A stretch of DNA of 64,000 nt from Chelatococcus reniformis (GTDB lineage Bacteria; Pseudomonadota; Alphaproteobacteria; Rhizobiales; Beijerinckiaceae): the NCBI RefSeq assembly GCF_014640075.1, contig NZ_BMGG01000013.1:1-64000 (forward strand), read 5' to 3'. Below the pieces are notes generated by a model. It was not told the DNA's origin. It made no database searches and saw nothing but the letters and a program-made list of their open reading frames with translations. Every line of letters begins with the position of its first letter. Position 1 is the stretch's first letter. Below are positions 3,576-13,748 of the stretch, in pieces. The position numbers were made by a program, and so were the translations under genes.

Positions 3576-5705
3576 CTATTGGGCGGGGGTGAGGACCGGC
3601 GTCGGCGGCCGCACGACACCGGTGTGGCCCAGATCGATCACGCGATCGGCGCTGCGGATGGTGGAGGGGCGGTGGGCCACGATGATACGGGTGATGCGCA
3701 GGCGCCGGATGGCGTTGTTCACCACCGCTTCATTGGCCTCGTCGAGGTGGCTGGTGGCCTCGTCGAGGAACAGGATCGCGGGCTCCTTGTAGAGTGCACG
3801 CGCCAGGAACAGCCGCTGCTTCTGGCCGCCGGAGAGCGTCGATCCCATGTCGCCGACCAGCGTCTCGTAGCCCATGGGCATGCGCAGGATATCCTCGTGC
3901 AGCGCCGCCGCCTGCGCGCAGGCGAGGATGCGATCGCCGTCCGGGCTGAGGTCGAAGGCGCAGATGTTGTCGGCGATGGATCCGGCGAAGAGCCGGTCCT
4001 CCTGCAGCACGCAGCCGACCAGCCGCCGGTAGTTGGTGAGGCCGAGGGCGCGCAGCGGCACGCCGTCGATGGCGATATCGCCCGAGCTCGGCGCCATCAG
4101 CCCGGCGAGCACCTTCACGAGGGTGGTCTTGCCGCAGCCGGAGGGGCCGACGATCGCCACGGATTCGCCCGGCTCCACGGCGAGATCGAGGCGCTTGAAG
4201 ATCTCGGGTTCGCTCGCGCCGTAGCGAAAGCTCAACTGCTTCGCCTCGAGGCGCCCCTCGGGGCGGCGCAGCGGCGGACTGCGATCGTCGCCCTCGTCCT
4301 CCACCTCGGACAGCACGATGTCCGACACCCGCTCGGCGTGCAGCGACAGCATGCGGAACTGAACGAGGCTGTTGATCAGGTTCTCGATGCGGCGTGCGAA
4401 GTCGTCCTTGTAGGCGAGGAACGCCAGCAGCATGCCGACCGAGGAGCTGCCGGCGATGATGGCGGCAGCCCCCAGATAGAGCATCAGGATGCGGTCGGCC
4501 CCGAACAGGATGCTGGTGGCCGTCTGGAAGATGACGTCGAGCTTCTCGGTCTTGAGGCTGGCGTTGGTGGCGTCGACGAGATGGTTCAGCCATCCGGCCC
4601 GGCGCCGCTCCTTGAGGTCGAACAGCTTCAGGCTCGAAATGCCGCGCACGGTCTCCATGAGATGCGTGTCGCGCTTGGCATTGAACACGATCTCCTCTTC
4701 CGAGGCCTGCAGGTAGGCGGCGTAGGTGATCGCCCGCGCCGCGACATAGAGCGCCGTCGTGACGAGCCCGATCGCCGCCAGCCAGCCGCCGTAGACGAGC
4801 ATCATGGCGAACAGGCCGATGGCCATGATGCCGTCGACGACGCTCGTCACCAGTTGCGTCGACACCGTGCGCTGGATCTCGCCCAGCGACGAAAAGCGCG
4901 AGATGACGTCGCCGATGTGGCGCTTCTCGAAATAGTCGACCGGCAGGCGGATCAGCCGGTCGAACAGGCTGGAGGTCAGCTGCACACCCAGGTTGGTGGA
5001 CATGACCATGATCGCCCACGAGCGCACGAAGCGGGTGGCGGCCTGCAGCGCGACGAGCAGGCCGAGCGCCAGCGCGATCACGGTCAGCAGCGACATGTCG
5101 CCGGCGACGATGACCTGGTCGACGACGAGCTGCGTCCCGATGGGGATCAGGAGGGCGAACGCCTCGATGGCGATCGAGATCAGCAGCACGTGGGACATCG
5201 CCCGGCCGAGGCCGCTGATGCTGCGCAGCAGCTCGGTGAGCTTGAGCTGGCGCCGCTCGATGACCGGCTTGAAGCTGGCGTTCGGCCACAGCTCCAGCGC
5301 AACGCCGGTGAACTGCTTGGCGAGCTCCGCCAACGCGAGCTTGCGCCGCCCGGCGGCCGGATCGTGGATCACGACGAAGGTCTCGTTCACCTCGACCAGC
5401 ACCACGAAGTGGTTGAGGTTCCAATGCAGGATACACGGCAGCCGCAGGCGGCCGAGGCTGGCCGGTTCCAGCCGGAGCGCCCGGGCCGTCAGGTCGAGGG
5501 TGCCGGCCAGCCCCATCAGGGCGCGCAGCGTCAGCCCCTTCAGGGTGGTCGCGTAGGCGCGGCGCATGGCGGCGAGGTCGAGCGAATGGCCGTGGAAGTT
5601 GGCCACCATCGCCAGGCACGCGAGGGCGCATTCCGCCGCCTCGGTCTGCAAGATGACGGGCGTGCGGCGGCCGAAGCCAAAGCGGAGGCGTTCGAGAACC
5701 GTCAC
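3576..5705 (-). CDS. C39-peptidase/ABC exporter (bacteriocin maturation and secretion)
   Basis: A 709-residue inner-membrane transporter that cuts leader peptides and exports the mature peptide. The N-terminal C39 cysteine protease has QTEAAEC with catalytic Cys26, His99 in NHFVVL and Asp115 in HDPAAG. A six-helix ABC membrane domain follows, then an ATPase with Walker A GPSGCGKTT, signature LSGGQKQR and Walker B ILFLDEAT. Start GTG 5705 overlaps the HlyD stop (GTGA). A longer frame to 5762 exists but lies inside hlyD. The complete protease triad means the protein should process a double-glycine-type leader, which matches the precursor gene at the head of the locus. It belongs to the CvaB/lactococcin-type exporter group. 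Confidence 0.93.
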   Translation of the reverse strand: MTVLERLRFGFGRRTPVILQTEAAECALACLAMVANFHGHSLDLAAMRRAYATTLKGLTLRALMGLAGTLDLTARALRLEPASLGRLRLPCILHWNLNHFVVLVEVNETFVVIHDPAAGRRKLALAELAKQFTGVALELWPNASFKPVIERRQLKLTELLRSISGLGRAMSHVLLISIAIEAFALLIPIGTQLVVDQVIVAGDMSLLTVIALALGLLVALQAATRFVRSWAIMVMSTNLGVQLTSSLFDRLIRLPVDYFEKRHIGDVISRFSSLGEIQRTVSTQLVTSVVDGIMAIGLFAMMLVYGGWLAAIGLVTTALYVAARAITYAAYLQASEEEIVFNAKRDTHLMETVRGISSLKLFDLKERRRAGWLNHLVDATNASLKTEKLDVIFQTATSILFGADRILMLYLGAAAIIAGSSSVGMLLAFLAYKDDFARRIENLINSLVQFRMLSLHAERVSDIVLSEVEDEGDDRSPPLRRPEGRLEAKQLSFRYGASEPEIFKRLDLAVEPGESVAIVGPSGCGKTTLVKVLAGLMAPSSGDIAIDGVPLRALGLTNYRRLVGCVLQEDRLFAGSIADNICAFDLSPDGDRILACAQAAALHEDILRMPMGYETLVGDMGSTLSGGQKQRLFLARALYKEPAILFLDEATSHLDEANEAVVNNAIRRLRITRIIVAHRPSTIRSADRVIDLGHTGVVRPPTPVLTPAQ

Positions 5706-7135
5706 GGGCTTCCCGCTCCCGCGGTGCCGGCGCTCAGGCTGTAGAGCGGATCGAGGATCCACTGATAGAGCGGCCGCTTGTCGAGAAAGACGGTGGCCTG
5801 CACCCGCATGCCGGCCGTCACCTTCTGCGCGGCGCCGTAGGCGTTCACCTCCGCACGCTCGGGCTCGACGGTGATGCGGTAGAGGTTCTGATTGCCCGGG
5901 GCCGGTCCCGGCGCGGCGCTCGGACCGGGTTGGCGAAGATCCGCCAGCTCCTCCGGCCGCAGCGCGATGCGTGAGATCGCTTTCACCCGCCCGCCGTACT
6001 GGCCGAACTTCTGGTAGGGAAACGCCTCGTAGCGGAGCAGCACCTTCTGGCCGGGCTCGATGAAGCCGATGGCGCTGCTCGGCGCGCCGAGCTCGGCCAG
6101 AAGGCGCGAGGTGCCGGGCAGGATCGTGGCCATCGGCGCGCCGGCTGCCACCGTCTCGCCGGCGCGCGCCACGATGCCGGTGACGATGCCGTCCCGCGGC
6201 GCCGTGATCCAGAGGGCACGCTTGGATTCGCCTTCGGCAATCGCCTGGTCCGTCTGCGCGATCTGACGTGTGAGCTCGCTCTGCGCCGAGGCGCTGCGCG
6301 TGTCGGAGGTGGCGATCTGCGATCTCAGCTCGCTCAGCTTGGTCGCCAGTTGCAGGCGCTCGCGGCGCAGCCGTTCGAGCTGCTGGCGCTCGGCCATGTA
6401 GGCCTGCTCCTTGATGTCGACCTGCATCTGCACGACGATCTGCCGCCGGGCATACTCCTGGTAGCGCGCAAAGCCCTCCTTGAGTGCCTTGACGTACTCC
6501 CCCGAGACCGCGATCTGCTGATCGATCTGGCCGATCTCGCGCGCCGTGTCGTGCTCGCGCTGGACGAGCTCCTGCTTCTGCGCGCGGTCGAGCGCGGCTT
6601 TGCGCAGGCGCTCGGCCTCGTGCTCCTGGCGCTGGCGCCGCAGCTCCTCCACGACAGCGACCTGGGTCCCGCCGAGATTGGACAGCGCGTCGATATCGAG
6701 CGTGTAGAGTAGCTGTCCCCGGGTCACGACCTGGCCCTCGCTCGCGGCGAGCTGGACGATCCGGCCGGCCGCGGGAGCGTTGATCTTGGCGATGCCGTCC
6801 ACGGGCGTCATGACCCCGTTGACGGTCGTCCGACGGCTGTAGCTGCCGAGCACCAGCAGGCCGGCGATGGCGGCGACGGCCGCCGCGGCAAACGGCGCCG
6901 CCGCCCGGAGCGCCAGGGGAGCGACGATCCGGGGCGCACCGAGCAGCCGCTCGCGCCGGGTATCGATGACCTCGGCGCGGAAGAGAGGCGTGGGCGCGGG
7001 GTCGGCGGCAGGCGCTGGCGCAGGCTCGGCGATCGCGGCCGCCGGCTGCGGGACCGCCTGTGGCGCCCAGGCCGGCGCGGCTGCGTTCGCAGGGGCGGCC
7101 GACAGCCGGACCTCATATCGGAAGGGCTGGTTCAT
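5702..7135 (-). CDS. HlyD-family periplasmic adaptor of a type I secretion system
   Basis: A 477-residue membrane-fusion protein. A proline/alanine-rich cytoplasmic tail (about residues 1-70) precedes one membrane helix (about 85-103). Then come a first biotinyl-lipoyl half (APAAGRIVQLAASEGQVV), a long coiled-coil hairpin (about 150-295), the second lipoyl half (APRDGIVTGIVARAGETV) and a C-terminal beta-barrel domain. It would connect the ABC exporter to an outer-membrane TolC-like channel. No TolC gene is present in the window, so a channel elsewhere in the genome is presumed. It lies between the small membrane protein and the exporter, overlapping the latter by four bases. Confidence 0.92.
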   Translation of the reverse strand: MNQPFRYEVRLSAAPANAAAPAWAPQAVPQPAAAIAEPAPAPAADPAPTPLFRAEVIDTRRERLLGAPRIVAPLALRAAAPFAAAAVAAIAGLLVLGSYSRRTTVNGVMTPVDGIAKINAPAAGRIVQLAASEGQVVTRGQLLYTLDIDALSNLGGTQVAVVEELRRQRQEHEAERLRKAALDRAQKQELVQREHDTAREIGQIDQQIAVSGEYVKALKEGFARYQEYARRQIVVQMQVDIKEQAYMAERQQLERLRRERLQLATKLSELRSQIATSDTRSASAQSELTRQIAQTDQAIAEGESKRALWITAPRDGIVTGIVARAGETVAAGAPMATILPGTSRLLAELGAPSSAIGFIEPGQKVLLRYEAFPYQKFGQYGGRVKAISRIALRPEELADLRQPGPSAAPGPAPGNQNLYRITVEPERAEVNAYGAAQKVTAGMRVQATVFLDKRPLYQWILDPLYSLSAGTAGAGSP

Positions 7136-7200
7136 TCAGGGCGCGAGCCGTCGTGCAGCAGCGCCCAAACCTGGGGGGCGGAGATCATCTTGCGGCGCGA

Positions 7201-7482
7201 TCAGCCGGCGGCCCGTGCCAGCCGCCAGATCGCGTAGCCGTTGTTGGCGACGATGAGCGCGAGGACCGCCGCGAGCCCTTCGAGCGCGCCTTCGAAGCGG
7301 GAGGCAAGGCCGATCGCCGCGCCCGCAACGATAGCATAGCCGGCAACGAAGACCTCCAGGCCGTGACGCGCGATCAGCCGCTGAAACAGCAAGTTGCTCT
7401 CGGCACCGGGACCGGCGATCCGCACGCCGGCGACCGTCGTGACGAGATCGGCCAGGGCCAGGGATGCAGTCAGCCAGATCAT
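7201..7482 (-). CDS. small three-helix membrane protein, candidate immunity protein
   Basis: A 93-residue hydrophobic protein with three probable membrane helices (about residues 1-21, 40-62 and 66-88). The N-terminal LADLVTTVAGVRI...ESN segment resembles DUF5658-type small membrane proteins. Start ATG 7482 has a GGAGGAG box six bases upstream; the longer frame to 7515 has none. It sits 55 bases after the bacteriocin-like precursor and 65 bases before hlyD, the usual place for a self-immunity protein. The immunity role is inference from position and topology only. Confidence 0.75.
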   Translation of the reverse strand: MIWLTASLALADLVTTVAGVRIAGPGAESNLLFQRLIARHGLEVFVAGYAIVAGAAIGLASRFEGALEGLAAVLALIVANNGYAIWRLARAAG

Positions 7483-7537
7483 TGCGATCTCCTCCGATGG
7501 GGCGGCGGGCGTCATCGACGCCCGCCGCGTTGACGAC

Positions 7538-7867
7538 TCAGAAGCCGCTGACCTTCAGCCAACCGCCGAATGCGCCGCCGAGGGCGCCTGCGGCCGCACC
7601 GGCGCCCACCGCGCGCCAGCTGAAATCGCCGTTGATGCTGGAGGTCACGCCGCCGGCCACGGCGCCGACCACGGCGCCCCCGCCGATACGAACCGCATAG
7701 ATCGCGAGCGGCGCGATGGCGCCGTTGACGGCGTCGAGCTCGTCATCGGACAGCTCGCGGATGTCATCGGGCATCACCGGCAGCGTCGCGTCGCGAAGCG
7801 CGATTGAGGCATGGAGGCCGGGAACGGCGGGGGCATAGGGAAGCTGATAGGTCATGGAATAGCTCAT
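7538..7867 (-). CDS. bacteriocin/microcin-like precursor peptide with C39-type leader
   Basis: A 109-residue precursor. The first ~50 residues end in ELSDDELDAVNGA, matching the LSxxELxxV-x-G-(G/A) rule for leaders cut by C39 peptidases, with predicted cleavage after Ala50. The 59-residue core is extremely rich in Gly and Ala, contains several GxxxG patterns (GGGAVVGAVAGG, GAGAAAGALGGAFGG) and no cysteine, and resembles membrane-inserting class II peptides. Start ATG 7867 follows a GAGGATCGCG box; another ATG is four codons later, and the frame to 7975 lacks support. It heads a four-gene set with the small membrane protein, HlyD and C39-ABC exporter. Its activity and target cannot be read from sequence. 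Confidence 0.85.
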   Translation of the reverse strand: MSYSMTYQLPYAPAVPGLHASIALRDATLPVMPDDIRELSDDELDAVNGAIAPLAIYAVRIGGGAVVGAVAGGVTSSINGDFSWRAVGAGAAAGALGGAFGGWLKVSGF

Positions 7868-8353
7868 CGCGATCCTCGTCGTCTGAGTTTGTGATGGGAC
7901 CGCCCGGCTTCGGGCGCATCGCGAGGGTCTGGGACCTCGTGACGCGCAATGGTGCCCCATGCCGCGTGGCGACAATCTGAATATCCTTTGTCGTATGCTT
8001 GGGTATTCTGTGTCAAAAATCTGTCGAATCGAGATTAAATTCCAATCTATAAATATCTTGCCAGCTTATTAGAGATATAATTCACACTTTTTTAGATCAC
8101 ATGGCAATTCGAAACAGATGTAAACGCATGATATCTGCTTGTGTTCCGACCCAATGAGCCAATAGTCGCTCTCAATTCGCCGGTCTCCCGGGCTACGGCA
8201 ATGCTATAGCTTGTTCAGCGCCGTCCTGCGACCGTGTCGGCAGCCAACGGATCCGCCAAGCGTGCGCCCGTCGCCCGCGCGACGATGCCTCTTAAGGAAA
8301 CTCAGATTCCGGTCGCGCGGAGCAGCGGCTAATCCGGCCGCCGCCGCGGTCGC
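7868..8353. other. AT-rich intergenic region upstream of the bacteriocin locus
   Basis: No gene is seen. Bases about 7985-8135 are strikingly AT-rich compared with the roughly 68% GC surroundings, with runs such as attaaattcc and ataaatatc. The minus strand has TTGACA at 8016-8011, a possible -35 element for the peptide operon, but no convincing -10 at the right distance. The AT-rich island is a likely promoter and silencer-binding region, or a scar of acquisition. Bases 8200-8353 return to the usual GC content. Confidence 0.5.
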
Positions 8354-9646
8354 TCAGGCGCCGGCGACGTCCGCCACCGGCTTGCCGTCGATGCCCCCGA
8401 CCGACGGGGCGCTCGCCTCGCGATAGCGCCCGAGCGACAGGAACAGCAGGGCCGGCACGATCTGGAGAGCGGCGAGCGCATACAGCGGCGCGCCGGAGCC
8501 GGGGTAGGCGGCGAGCGCCCAGGCGAAGACGACCGGTGCGACGGCGCCGCCGAGAAAGAAGGCGAACAGGAACCAGCCGAAGACCTTCGACACCGCTTCC
8601 GTGCCGAAATAGCGCCCGGCGAGATAAGGGAGCAGGTCGCTCTCGCCGCCGATGGCCAGGCCGCCGATGATGCCCCCCACCAGTAGCACGGCGAAGCTGG
8701 CGGACGTGCCGTAGACGAGGAAGCACACGGCCGAGAAGGCAAGCGCGATGATCGCCACCACGGGCGCGTGCAGGCGGTCGAGCATCAAGCCGAAACCGAT
8801 CCTGCCGACCAGGACGGCCACGCCCGCGAACGCCTGGATCAGCGCGACCTCGGCCAGGCTGCGGCCGCCCAGCTGGGTGAGGACGTAGGCGACGTTGGTG
8901 ATGATGGCATAAAGCGACGCGCCCATGAGCGCGAAGCCGATCGCCAGCTTCCAGAAGGTCGCCGTCCTCACCACGGCCGCCATGCGGAGCTGCACGGCGG
9001 GCGCCTGCGGCGCAGGGCGCTCGGGGAGCGCCTCGCCACCATCCGGCAGGAGGCCATAGGGGGCTGGGCTGTCGAGCACCAGCAGCGCCACCAGCGGCAG
9101 GCAGATCAGGAGCTCGAAAGCGGCGAGCACAAGCACCGCGGTCGGCCAGCCGGACTGGGCGATCAGCGCCTGCATGACGATCGGAATCGAGAACGCGCCG
9201 AGCGCTTGCGCCGAGGCGGCGATGCCCAGCGCCAGCCCGCGCTTGCGGTCGAACCACAGCGAGATCGCCCGCGCATAGGAGATCACATTCGTCCCGGCGC
9301 TGACGAGGCCGATGAGGACGAAGGCAAGGTAGAACTGGGTCAGCGAGTTGCCGATCTGGCTGAGGATCAGCAGCGAGGCACCGAACAAGGCGATGCTCGC
9401 CGTCGCGATCCTGCGCGAGCCCCAGCGGTCGAGCAGCCAGCCGCACACCGGAAACATCACGGTCTGGGCGAGCAGGTATAGCGTCGCCGCGCCGGCAAGT
9501 TGCGGCTGGGTCCAGCCGAACTGCCGGCCGATGGCGCCGGACAGCAGCGCGAAACCTGCCGCGAAGAAGACGGCGGATCCAAAACCGATGCCGATGCCGG
9601 ATCCGGCGACGACCTTCCAGCCCGGGAAGAACAGGGGCGTTCCCAT
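8354..9646 (-). CDS. MFS transporter
   Basis: A 430-residue inner-membrane protein with about twelve hydrophobic segments in two halves separated by a hydrophilic loop near residues 195-220. The GWLLDRWGSRR stretch between helices 2 and 3 is the MFS signature loop, and GFGLMLDRLH is its counterpart in the second half. The family resembles oxalate/formate-type and monocarboxylate-like MFS carriers, but the substrate cannot be assigned. ATG 9646 is chosen for its AAGGAG box six bases upstream; the frame extends to 9709. It is transcribed toward the bacteriocin locus and away from the autotransporter. Confidence 0.88.
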   Translation of the reverse strand: MGTPLFFPGWKVVAGSGIGIGFGSAVFFAAGFALLSGAIGRQFGWTQPQLAGAATLYLLAQTVMFPVCGWLLDRWGSRRIATASIALFGASLLILSQIGNSLTQFYLAFVLIGLVSAGTNVISYARAISLWFDRKRGLALGIAASAQALGAFSIPIVMQALIAQSGWPTAVLVLAAFELLICLPLVALLVLDSPAPYGLLPDGGEALPERPAPQAPAVQLRMAAVVRTATFWKLAIGFALMGASLYAIITNVAYVLTQLGGRSLAEVALIQAFAGVAVLVGRIGFGLMLDRLHAPVVAIIALAFSAVCFLVYGTSASFAVLLVGGIIGGLAIGGESDLLPYLAGRYFGTEAVSKVFGWFLFAFFLGGAVAPVVFAWALAAYPGSGAPLYALAALQIVPALLFLSLGRYREASAPSVGGIDGKPVADVAGA

Positions 9647-10142
9647 GGCGAGCTCCTTGCCATTCGAGGCGGTGCGGACGACAGCCCGGCTCGCCCACCG
9701 CCGATGCAAGGAGGACGGGCACCGCGACTCGCCGGTGGCCGACTATTGCAGCGCCTTCGGCCGCCGTCACCGATAGCGACGGCACACGACCAACGCGGAG
9801 AAGTGTATCGCCCGGTTCCTGCACGGGGCGCCGGGCCTCGGCAAGCCAGGCACTGTCAACGGAATGAGCGGGTAGACGGTCCCGTCGGCATCCGCGGCCC
9901 GAGGCACTTTGGACGCTCTGGACGGCGCCGCCCCTAGGGCGCGGACGGCCCTGCGCCGAGCGAGCGGTCCGCATGGACGCAAGTCGAAATTCTCTGTTAC
10001 TTTGCCGTCGACTCGCCGATGTGTGCGCGATCACCGCAACCACGTCATCGAGTCCAAGGCGCGCCATTGGCAGAGCTGTATCGCAGGGCTGAGCGGGCAG
10101 CTCGATCGGCTCCGGGCGCGTAGAGGGCAGAGGGGCGTTCAA
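9647..10142. other. divergent intergenic region, MFS / autotransporter
   Basis: About 500 bases between two divergently transcribed genes, so it must hold both promoters. No gene-like frame with a ribosome-binding site was found, and I could not identify a clear palindrome or consensus promoter. Confidence 0.45.
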
Positions 10143-13100
10143 ATGTGGTTCGCGGCTCGCGGCGCCTGGCGGCGCTCGCTTCTGTTCGTCTCGGCGGCGG
10201 CTATGCTCGCCGCGACCCCGGCGCTGGCGGATCCCGTCGCGCTCCCCTGGGGCGATCCGGCGAGCGTGAGCGTGCTCCAGCGGGCGATCGACCAGTTCCG
10301 GGTCGACAAACGCATCCCCGGCGCGGTCGTGCTGCTGCGCCAGGGCGACAGCAGCTTCGCCATCAACTCCGGCGTGGCCGACATCGCAACGAACGCCGCG
10401 CCAACGCCGGACACATATTTCGGCTACCGCAGCGTCACCAAGTCGTTCGTGACGACAGTTGTCATGCAGCTCGCCCAGGAAGGGCGCCTGAAGCTCGACG
10501 ACCCGGTCGGCAAATACGTGGCCGGTGTGCCCAGTGGCGACGTCATCACCGTGCGCCAGCTCGCCGAGATGCGTTCGGGCCTGTTCAGCTACACGGCCTC
10601 TCCGGCATTCGGCGAGGCAGCCGGAGCGGACCCCGGCAAGGTCTGGACGCCTGACGAACTGCTGGCCTACGGCTTCGCCCAGCCGCTGCAGTTCACGCCG
10701 GGCACGTCCTTCCAATACTCCAACACCAACACGGTTCTGCTGGGCCAGGTCATCGCCGCCGTCACGGGCAGCGCCTGGTCCGTGGAGGTGCAACGGCGCC
10801 TGAGCGGGCCGCTGGGCCTCGCCTCGGTGATCGACCAGGGTGGCGGCGCCCTGCCTCAACCCAACGCGGTCGGCTATTTCGACGCCGGGGAGGGGCCCGT
10901 CGCCCTCGACGAGTTCAACGCCTCGGGCGCTGGCGCGTCCGGAGCGCTGACCGGCGTCGCCCGCGATCTGGAGCGCTGGGGCAAGGCCGTCGGCACCGGC
11001 GCCACCTTGAGCGAGGCCGAATTCGTCGCCCGCATGAAGTCGTTCGGATCGACGAAAAGCGATCCAAACAGCCCGGAATACGACAGTTACGGCTTCGGCA
11101 TGGGCGAGATCCAGGGATGGATCGGGCACACCGGCAACGGCCTCGGCTTCGAGGTGCTGGTCATGTACGACCGCGCCACCGACCGCACCATCACCGTCCT
11201 GTTCAACGCGGCCAACGCCGACGATCACGACGCGCCGGCCCATCTCTTCCAGGAGTTGCTGGGCCTGCTCGGCTGGACGCCGCCGGCGAACCAACGGCAG
11301 GTGGTGGCCGACGGAGGGCCGGCGGTGGTGAGCGCCGGCACGGTCTGGACCGGCCTCGTCAGCGGCCCGTTCGGCGCGCGCGCCGCGGTCTATGCCGCCA
11401 ACGGCGGCGTCGTCACCGCCGACGGGCCGGTGACGCTCGCCCCCATGCAGGACTACGTGCCCGCGATCTTTGTCGGCGGCAATGGCCGGGTGGCGCTCGA
11501 CCAAGGCGGCACGATCTCGGCGTCGGTGGGCGGCGACGGCGCCTTCGTGCAGGGCGGCAGCGGCACCGCAGAACTGTCGCTCACCGGCGTCGCGGTCGCG
11601 CTGCGGGGCGATGCCGTCACCGGCACGGGCGTCGACGTGCGCGGGGGCGGCAGCGCCGTGCTGAACGGCGTGCGCATCAGCGGGGCGGCGCAAGCGGCGC
11701 TACACGCCGGAGGCACGGCGCCGGCGTCGATCAGCGCGACCGGGCTATCCGTCGATCTCGTCGGCGGACATGGGGCGTGGGCGACCGGCAACGGCACCAT
11801 CGCGCTCTCGGGCAGCACGATCGTGCTGCGCGGCGCGGGTCACGGCCTGCTCGCCACCAGCCTCGACGCGCCGGCCCGCATCTCGGCCCTGGGATCGACG
11901 GTGGAGACCTTCGGCGCCTTCAGTTTCGGTGCCGTGGCCCAAGGAGCCGGCGCCTCCGTGGCGCTCGCCGGCTCCCGCATCACCACCTTCGGCGCTTTCT
12001 CGCATGGCGCCGTATTGGGGCAGGGCGCGGCGATGGCCCTCGCCGGCAGCAGCATACGCGCGGAGGGCCTGGCTGCCGCGGCGGTGGCCGCCGTTCCGGT
12101 CGTCACGACGGCGGGCCCGAGCAGCGCGGCGCTGTCGCTCGACGCCAGCTCGCTGTCGGCCGCGAGCGGCATCGCCGTGATGGCGGCCGGCACCGATCTC
12201 GTCCTCAACGCGTCGCGCTCGGTGATCGCAGGCGCGATCACCGCCGCCGACACGGCGACGATCGCGCTGACGCTCGACAACGGCAGCGCCTGGACGCTCG
12301 CACCGGCGGACATCGCGCCGCCGTCGCGCCTGAGCCGCATCGCCGTCCGCGACAGCAGCATCGCCTTTGCGCCGCCCGCATCCGCAGGGGCCTACCAGGC
12401 CCTGGCCGTCGGCAGCTACACGGGCGCCGGCGCCACGCTGAGCATGAACGCCTTCCTCGCCGGCACGGGCGGCGCCGACCGGCTGATCATCGACGGGGGC
12501 ACGGCGAGCGGCCAGACGCAGCTCGTCATCCAACCCACCGGCGGTGGCGCGCCCACCACCGGCGACGGCATCCTGTTGGTCGAGACGGTGAACGGGGCTC
12601 AAACGTCGCCGACGGCGTTCTCGCTCAACGGGGCGCGCGTCGCCGCCGGCGCCTTCGACTACAATCTCTACCGCGGCGGCCTCGCGGGCGGAGACGACTG
12701 GTTCCTGCGCTCGACACGCCCGGCCCCGGGCGGGTCGGGCCTGCCGGACATCCGCCCCGAGGTCGCGGTCGACCTGGCGCTGCCGGCCATGGCCGCCCGC
12801 TTCGGCCTGGCCATGGTCGGCACCTACGACGACCGCGCCGATGCGCGGGCGGCCGCGGCGGGGAGCCCCCTGGGATCGAGCGGCGCGGCGTGGGCCCGCG
12901 CCTTCGGCGAGACCGGCCGCAACGGCTCGTCCGGCGGCAGCGGATTTGCGCAGCTCGATCGCTTCCTCGGGCAGGGGCCGAGCTACGATATCCGGTTTGC
13001 CGGCTTCCAGGCGGGCCTCGACCTCTATCGCACCGATGGCACCACCGGGTCGCGCGACCTCGCCGGCTTGTTCGTCGGGGCCGGTCACATCGAGGGCGAC

Positions 13101-13748
13101 GTCAACGCCGTCTACGGCGGGCGCGCCGGACAAGCCTCCATGGACGCCTATGCGATGGGGGCCTATTGGACCCATCGCGGTGCCGGCGGCTGGTACGTGG
13201 ACGCGGCGATCCAGGGCACCTTCTACGATCAGGCGCACGCCACCTCGCTCCTGGGCGAATTCCTGAAGACCCAGGGCTGGGGCCTGCTCGCCTCCTTGGA
13301 AGGCGGCTACCCCATCGCCCTCGGCACCGCCTGGACCATCGAACCGCAAGCCCAGGTCATCTATCAGCGCCTGTCGTTCGCCGACGGCGCCGACCGCTAC
13401 GGCGCCGTGGGCTACGACACGGCCGGAACGGCCTACGGCCGCATTGGCGCCCGCCTGACACGCGCCTGGATGCTGGACAACGGCCGCGCCATCTCGACCT
13501 GGGGGCGCGTCAATCTCTGGCACGCCTTCGGCGATGGCCCGACGGCGACCTTCGCCAGCCTGAGCGGCGCCTACCCGATGGCCTTCGATGCGGGCACCGG
13601 CGGCACCTGGGCGCAACTGGGCGCGGGCGTGTCCGCCGCTGTGGCCGACAACGTCAGCCTGTTCGCCGCCGCCGACTGCAATGTCCGCCTGGGCAGCGAG
13701 ACGGGGCGGTCCGTGGGCGGGCGCCTGGGCTTCCGCGTCACCTGGTAG
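10143..13748 (+). CDS. autotransporter with N-terminal serine beta-lactamase-like domain
   Basis: A 1201-residue secreted protein. A signal peptide (about residues 1-30, ending PALADP) is followed by a serine beta-lactamase/transpeptidase-like domain (about 35-390) with Ser97-x-x-Lys100, Tyr192-Ser-Asn194 and His329-Thr-Gly331 motifs, the class C or esterase type. Residues about 400-900 are a Gly/Ser/Ala-rich repetitive passenger of the pertactin beta-helix kind. The last ~290 residues form the autotransporter beta-barrel and end in FRVTW, with an aromatic C-terminus. It should be exported by Sec and displayed on or released from the outer membrane. The enzyme could be an esterase, peptidase or beta-lactamase. 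Start ATG 10143 is the only one that gives a signal peptide. Confidence 0.9.
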   Translation: MWFAARGAWRRSLLFVSAAAMLAATPALADPVALPWGDPASVSVLQRAIDQFRVDKRIPGAVVLLRQGDSSFAINSGVADIATNAAPTPDTYFGYRSVTKSFVTTVVMQLAQEGRLKLDDPVGKYVAGVPSGDVITVRQLAEMRSGLFSYTASPAFGEAAGADPGKVWTPDELLAYGFAQPLQFTPGTSFQYSNTNTVLLGQVIAAVTGSAWSVEVQRRLSGPLGLASVIDQGGGALPQPNAVGYFDAGEGPVALDEFNASGAGASGALTGVARDLERWGKAVGTGATLSEAEFVARMKSFGSTKSDPNSPEYDSYGFGMGEIQGWIGHTGNGLGFEVLVMYDRATDRTITVLFNAANADDHDAPAHLFQELLGLLGWTPPANQRQVVADGGPAVVSAGTVWTGLVSGPFGARAAVYAANGGVVTADGPVTLAPMQDYVPAIFVGGNGRVALDQGGTISASVGGDGAFVQGGSGTAELSLTGVAVALRGDAVTGTGVDVRGGGSAVLNGVRISGAAQAALHAGGTAPASISATGLSVDLVGGHGAWATGNGTIALSGSTIVLRGAGHGLLATSLDAPARISALGSTVETFGAFSFGAVAQGAGASVALAGSRITTFGAFSHGAVLGQGAAMALAGSSIRAEGLAAAAVAAVPVVTTAGPSSAALSLDASSLSAASGIAVMAAGTDLVLNASRSVIAGAITAADTATIALTLDNGSAWTLAPADIAPPSRLSRIAVRDSSIAFAPPASAGAYQALAVGSYTGAGATLSMNAFLAGTGGADRLIIDGGTASGQTQLVIQPTGGGAPTTGDGILLVETVNGAQTSPTAFSLNGARVAAGAFDYNLYRGGLAGGDDWFLRSTRPAPGGSGLPDIRPEVAVDLALPAMAARFGLAMVGTYDDRADARAAAAGSPLGSSGAAWARAFGETGRNGSSGGSGFAQLDRFLGQGPSYDIRFAGFQAGLDLYRTDGTTGSRDLAGLFVGAGHIEGDVNAVYGGRAGQASMDAYAMGAYWTHRGAGGWYVDAAIQGTFYDQAHATSLLGEFLKTQGWGLLASLEGGYPIALGTAWTIEPQAQVIYQRLSFADGADRYGAVGYDTAGTAYGRIGARLTRAWMLDNGRAISTWGRVNLWHAFGDGPTATFASLSGAYPMAFDAGTGGTWAQLGAGVSAAVADNVSLFAAADCNVRLGSETGRSVGGRLGFRVTW

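Follow-up and report, generated by a model that had tools for sequence, protein, structure and literature searches.

What does a leftward series of four genes in Chelatococcus reniformis export, and is the system to which it belongs new? The series lies in a stretch of 64,000 nucleotides of contig NZ_BMGG01000013.1 (positions 1 to 64,000; hereafter the window), and a preliminary description had proposed it as a possible new class II microcin/bacteriocin locus in an alphaproteobacterium. The four open reading frames (ORFs) named there, encoding a precursor (P0001), a small membrane protein (P0002), an HlyD-type protein (P0003) and a C39 ATP-binding cassette (ABC) exporter (P0004), are all present as described in position and strand. 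We consider it rather probable that they constitute an operon whose product is a bacteriocin made of one unmodified peptide, of the class II microcin or Cdz-like kind. The peptide itself is new; systems of this sort have been seen before.

The 109-residue precursor P0001 (7538..7867, minus strand, as are all four genes) consists of a leader (residues 1–50) ending in NGA and a 59-residue core. The reported leader ELSDDELDAVNGA, which ends in GA, was confirmed, and the strict leader motif occurs a single time across the six frames of the window. Described beforehand as Gly/Ala-rich and cysteine-free, the core contains 15 Gly, 13 Ala, no Cys and six GxxxG motifs. Its two zippers, GGGAVVGAVAGG and GAGAAAGALGGAFGG, are interrupted by neither proline nor charge, and its C-terminus, WLKVSGF, includes one Lys. 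A single-sequence AlphaFold model of P0001 was poor (mean predicted local distance difference test (pLDDT) score 53.6) and placed helices at residues 64–79 and 84–107. Searching the host genome with a precursor profile, of which P0001 is itself a part, returned P0001 as the sole match. Since no further precursor was found by this profile, the system likely uses a single peptide.

No microcin model of Pfam or NCBIfam matched P0001. The class IIb bacteriocin model TIGR03949 (lactobin A/cerein 7B) reached 20.7 bits (E 0.00026) over model positions 2–38 of 45, aligning the leader and the start of the GxxxG core. This match disappeared in four of four controls joining the leader to a shuffled core and in four of four joining a shuffled leader to the core; the leader-driven TIGR03898 match was kept in the four controls with shuffled cores. 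In contrast to the lactobin A/cerein 7B type, the window has a sub-cut-off score, a Gram-negative exporter with HlyD and one peptide.

C39 exporters cleave double-glycine leaders and secrete the product. The exporter P0004 (3576..5705; 709 residues from a GTG start; PF03412, PF00664 and PF00005) retains the catalytic residues Cys26, His99 and Asp115, as the preliminary description had stated, together with Gln20, Walker A, LSGGQ and Walker B. Its peptidase domain scored 116.8 bits against PF03412 (cut-off 22; 7.7e-34), and the protein aligns over residues 7/8–692 of 709 with two C39 transporters of solved structure, 4ry2 and 8vp3. Assignment to the NHLP bacteriocin export system was considered and rejected, the TIGR03796 score of 495.4 bits lying below the cut-off of 853.3. 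The adjoining P0003 (5702..7135; 477 residues) is an HlyD-type membrane fusion protein (PF13437, 4.2e-19; TIGR01843, 1.7e-34 but under the model cut-off). One TolC-type ORF with two OEP repeats is encoded elsewhere in the genome (G000:C2:396168-397307).

Between precursor and HlyD gene lies P0002 (7201..7482), a hydrophobic membrane protein. The start at 7515 (104 residues) is probably to be replaced by the ATG at 7482 (93 residues), directly upstream of which stands GGAGGAG. The three helices reported for it recur in a low-confidence single-sequence AlphaFold model (mean pLDDT 60.1). P0002 scored 14.6 bits against DUF5658 (cut-off 25.2). Its place next to the precursor gene makes it a candidate immunity protein. 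Taking the start at 7482, the gaps are 55 bases (P0001/P0002) and 65 bases (P0002/P0003), and the HlyD and ABC genes overlap by four bases; because of this spacing the four genes likely form one operon. The intergenic stretch upstream (7868..8353) has a lower guanine plus cytosine (GC) content (0.594 at 8001–8500) and is the presumed promoter region; scanning the region for a consensus promoter or terminator found none. By family search, the flanking genes are a DUF2848 gene downstream and a major facilitator superfamily (MFS) gene upstream, the latter with matches only 26–32% identical in two congeners; neither looks part of the system. The family matches of the series and these two genes include no modifying enzyme, and PADLOC gave the four proteins no defence meaning, its only matches being generic ABC ones and a weak one of coiled-coil-like type.

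That the four window genes form one unit is supported most strongly by another genome. Two separate searches, with P0001 and with P0004, converge on one locus (L182) of genome G465 with the same gene order: precursor, a 68-residue ORF with two transmembrane segments, HlyD and C39-ABC. Its peptide was the best match to P0001 among 385 genomes of the class (E 2.8e-6), and its exporter, 44% identical to P0004, was among those of seven of these genomes reached at E <= 1e-120. Like P0001, the G465 precursor is a glycine-zipper peptide, with a leader ending in VNGA, and its alignment with the P0001 core was beaten by none of 2,000 shuffles. The shuffles preserve composition but not repeat periodicity, which makes the p values generous; on this scale a 22-column alignment from DFSW with an Aureimonas peptide gave p 0.0005, and p ranged from 0.017 to 0.28 for the remaining six cores in the comparison. 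Unlike the window, L182 has five further double-glycine ORFs upstream, so that six consecutive ones of very unlike compositions precede one exporter (5336-8434, exporter orientation). The 68-residue ORF was not matched by P0002 (tblastn, E 0.01).

Beyond this locus P0001 and P0002 are, by our searches, near-orphans. The preliminary description had proposed a homology search with the core; the precursor's isolation emerged from searches with P0001, as did the relative in G465. Besides its own genome, P0001 had two weak matches in 60 relatives (3/60 including its own) and five in the 385 class genomes (6/385). All of the latter were inspected, and none other than that in G465 is a double-glycine precursor adjoining an exporter. 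Plasmids yielded no homologue of P0001 by tblastn at E 0.01, the viral_contigs and genome_contigs sets none that was confirmed in scans limited to six short peptide patterns, and solved structures no match at E <= 1. P0002 matched nothing but itself in 298 genomes of the family (1/298). In the class genomes it had three matches including itself, the others being loci L175 and L176; on inspection L175 holds no exporter. With filters off, the best that P0002 reached against small transmembrane ORFs near related exporters was E 0.17.

The exporter is far more widespread. P0004 matches at E <= 1e-60 occur in 160 of the 298 family genomes (own included), near full-length ones with 44–55% identity in only 39 other family genomes. 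Neither of two congeners has a match at E <= 1e-60, at most three candidates having been scored per genome. Among 270 confirmed matches in genome_contigs, the best 80 are mostly from Pseudomonadota, with five from Bacteroidota and one from Acidobacteriota. In a tree of 111 exporter rows (10 of 121 were dropped for stops or low coverage; rows L046 and L085 are identical) the window exporter sits on a long branch (0.79) within a 54-row set, and the tree does not settle its nearest neighbour.

We then asked what such exporters carry, using 125 loci (40 family, 80 named and 5 class) minus one duplicate contig; 111 had an HlyD match and enough upstream DNA to be scored, and 13 did not. Within 3 kb upstream of HlyD, a double-glycine ORF was found at 59 of 111 loci versus 3 of 102 downstream control pieces, and a cysteine-free glycine-zipper ORF of this type at 30 of 111 versus 0 of 102. 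Sixteen pieces of the window used as a further control contained neither. Glycine-zipper peptides occur at Methylobacterium loci and Gly/Ala-rich ones at Paracoccus, Labrys, Aureimonas and Aquimarina loci; two precursors at L037 are identical, letter for letter, to those of Methylobacterium bullatum (L166), and identities of this kind point to an alphaproteobacterial host in the Beijerinckiaceae/Methylobacteriaceae group. Some loci differ: in Methylobacterium nodulans pMNOD02 (L171, 1447-4004) and Rhodobacter sp. CZR27 (L169, 1540-4004), double-glycine precursors ending in YGA are Lys/Ser- or Arg/Lys/Ser-rich, unlike a bacteriocin; next in order come a hypothetical gene (about 320 residues), HlyD and a related exporter. 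In Aureimonas altamirensis (L084, 2727-4210) a TTLAVGEEDGGG-type repeat precursor, presumably graspetide-like, and a 352-residue ORF resembling an ATP-grasp ligase stand upstream of a C39 exporter, adjoining a glycine-zipper precursor. Because cargo varies so strongly, the exporter type is a confident predictor of a peptide that is cleaved and exported, but only a moderate one of a bacteriocin.

Several observations weigh against a bacteriocin. The GxxxG spacing noted in the preliminary description is only slightly above what composition predicts (p=0.07; small-xxx-small p=0.21, GxxxGxxxG p=0.047), and the TIGR03949 score falls below its cut-off of 21.5 bits, the model matching just one of the 15 precursors in alignment A1, which is P0001. 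No double-glycine ORF is seen at 52 of the 111 related loci by the motif used, a motif set after viewing the same loci, in a survey that counts near relatives (Methylobacterium, Rahnella) several times. Some cargo of related exporters is Lys/Ser-rich, Pro-rich or made of Gly-Asn repeats, unlike bacteriocins, and P0002 has no recognisable relation to any immunity family searched. Of 40 predicted Serratia microcins screened in one study, 12 were inhibitory to their E. coli secretor and only 7 produced zones on Serratia (PMC13101503).

Similar systems have been described before, so that the preliminary description overstated the novelty of the locus, although the sequence supports a C39-processed, type-I-exported, cysteine-free and glycine-rich peptide with a candidate immunity protein next to it. 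The Cdz system of Caulobacter, also an alphaproteobacterium, comprises glycine-zipper bacteriocins with leaders ending in G[G/A/S], exported by a type I system: the exporter CdzA/B, the peptides CdzC and CdzD, and CdzI, in two divergent operons (PMC5380434). Cdz-like peptides are defined there as having 60–151 residues, a leader ending in G[G/A/S], one or two zippers without proline or charge, and type I genes within 10 kb; most Cdz-like loci encode one toxin, according to its authors (PMC5380434). P0001 has 109 residues, a GA leader, uninterrupted zippers and type I genes within 10 kb. The two systems thus share a small precursor with such a leader, a glycine-zipper core, a type I exporter, a (candidate) immunity protein in the form of a small membrane protein with three helices, and an alphaproteobacterial host; the window differs in having one peptide rather than two and one gene series rather than two divergent operons. 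By these described features, Cdz appears to be the system that the operon most works like. The same parts define the class II microcins of Enterobacterales, which have a GG/GA leader, an exporter with the C39 triad, a membrane fusion protein, TolC and an adjacent immunity protein, usually a small one of the inner membrane (PMC9746304). Four of these five are present at the window or in the genome, and the fifth is represented by the candidate P0002. Unlike these microcins, the window has an alphaproteobacterial host, a 50-residue leader and no matching microcin model.

The C39 domain of P0004 would cleave P0001 after Gly49-Ala50, and the 59-residue core would leave through P0004, P0003 and a TolC channel encoded elsewhere. 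Cleavage after GA and export of the core are very likely, given the established biology of C39 exporters and the intact residues. In neighbouring related cells the core could then enter the inner membrane as a helical hairpin of the glycine-zipper type and render that membrane leaky, with P0002 in the producer's inner membrane conferring immunity; we infer these steps from the hydrophobic core and the gene layout. The membrane-active product proposed initially is plausible. Alternatively, the exported core may form glycine-zipper aggregates that remain on the surface of the producer and kill only by contact like CdzC/D, rather than diffuse as a microcin. P0001 resembles Cdz-like peptides in length, leader, zippers and nearby type I secretion genes, but its C-terminus is barely polar and it is one peptide, not two, a difference softened by the single toxin reported for most Cdz-like loci (PMC5380434); we regard this alternative as unlikely. 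Somewhat less likely again is a broader version, in which the exporter clade is a large, cargo-swapping proteobacterial family of glycine-zipper weapons and the operon a member of it with one peptide and contact-dependent action; the precursor and the immunity protein, a small membrane protein distantly like DUF5658, would then both be new families.

The peptide might also not be a weapon against others but a signal, an autolysis peptide or a surface or biofilm component using a C39 system. Gonococcal Nap peptides, with double-glycine leaders and an immunity-like gene, are reported to spare competitors and promote autolysis (PMC11798529), and the cargo of related exporters differs widely in composition. 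The hydrophobic Gly/Ala-rich core, the adjoining small membrane protein and the near-orphan, unshared sequence speak against such a role, since they fit a pair of toxin and immunity protein better than a conserved signal. We place this possibility at about the same low level as a surface-bound aggregate. We hold it to be very improbable that the product is a ribosomally synthesized and post-translationally modified peptide (RiPP) or that it acts together with a second peptide whose gene lies elsewhere. Several relatives do have at least two precursors (L037, L039 and L182), and at the Aureimonas locus L084 a TTLAVGEEDGG-repeat precursor and an ATP-grasp-like gene lie upstream of the exporter; against this stand the single profile match in the host genome and the lack of a modifying enzyme in the series and its flanks. 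A single-peptide, unmodified bacteriocin is the reading we retain.

Two further regions of the window were noted. A plus-strand segment at 583-2206 encodes an HNH endonuclease, which in its N-terminal part resembles the models for CBASS/SAVED-HNH effectors and PDC-M68A, followed by a 231-residue ORF without family and a 108-residue nucleotidyltransferase-like ORF (PF01909, just above cut-off). GC content is lower (0.56–0.61) at 1-2000, and the segment is possibly a defence module. At 10068-13748, also on the plus strand, lies an autotransporter with a beta-lactamase-family (PF00144, esterase-like) passenger and a PF03797 barrel.

If the peptide kills, the Methylobacterium/Beijerinckiaceae side of the alphaproteobacteria would gain a glycine-zipper bacteriocin that consists of one peptide and is paired with a small immunity protein of unrelated sequence. 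The peptide would also mark a group of exporters, found in Methylobacterium, Paracoccus, Labrys and Aureimonas as well, whose small upstream ORFs could be mined for toxin/immunity pairs.

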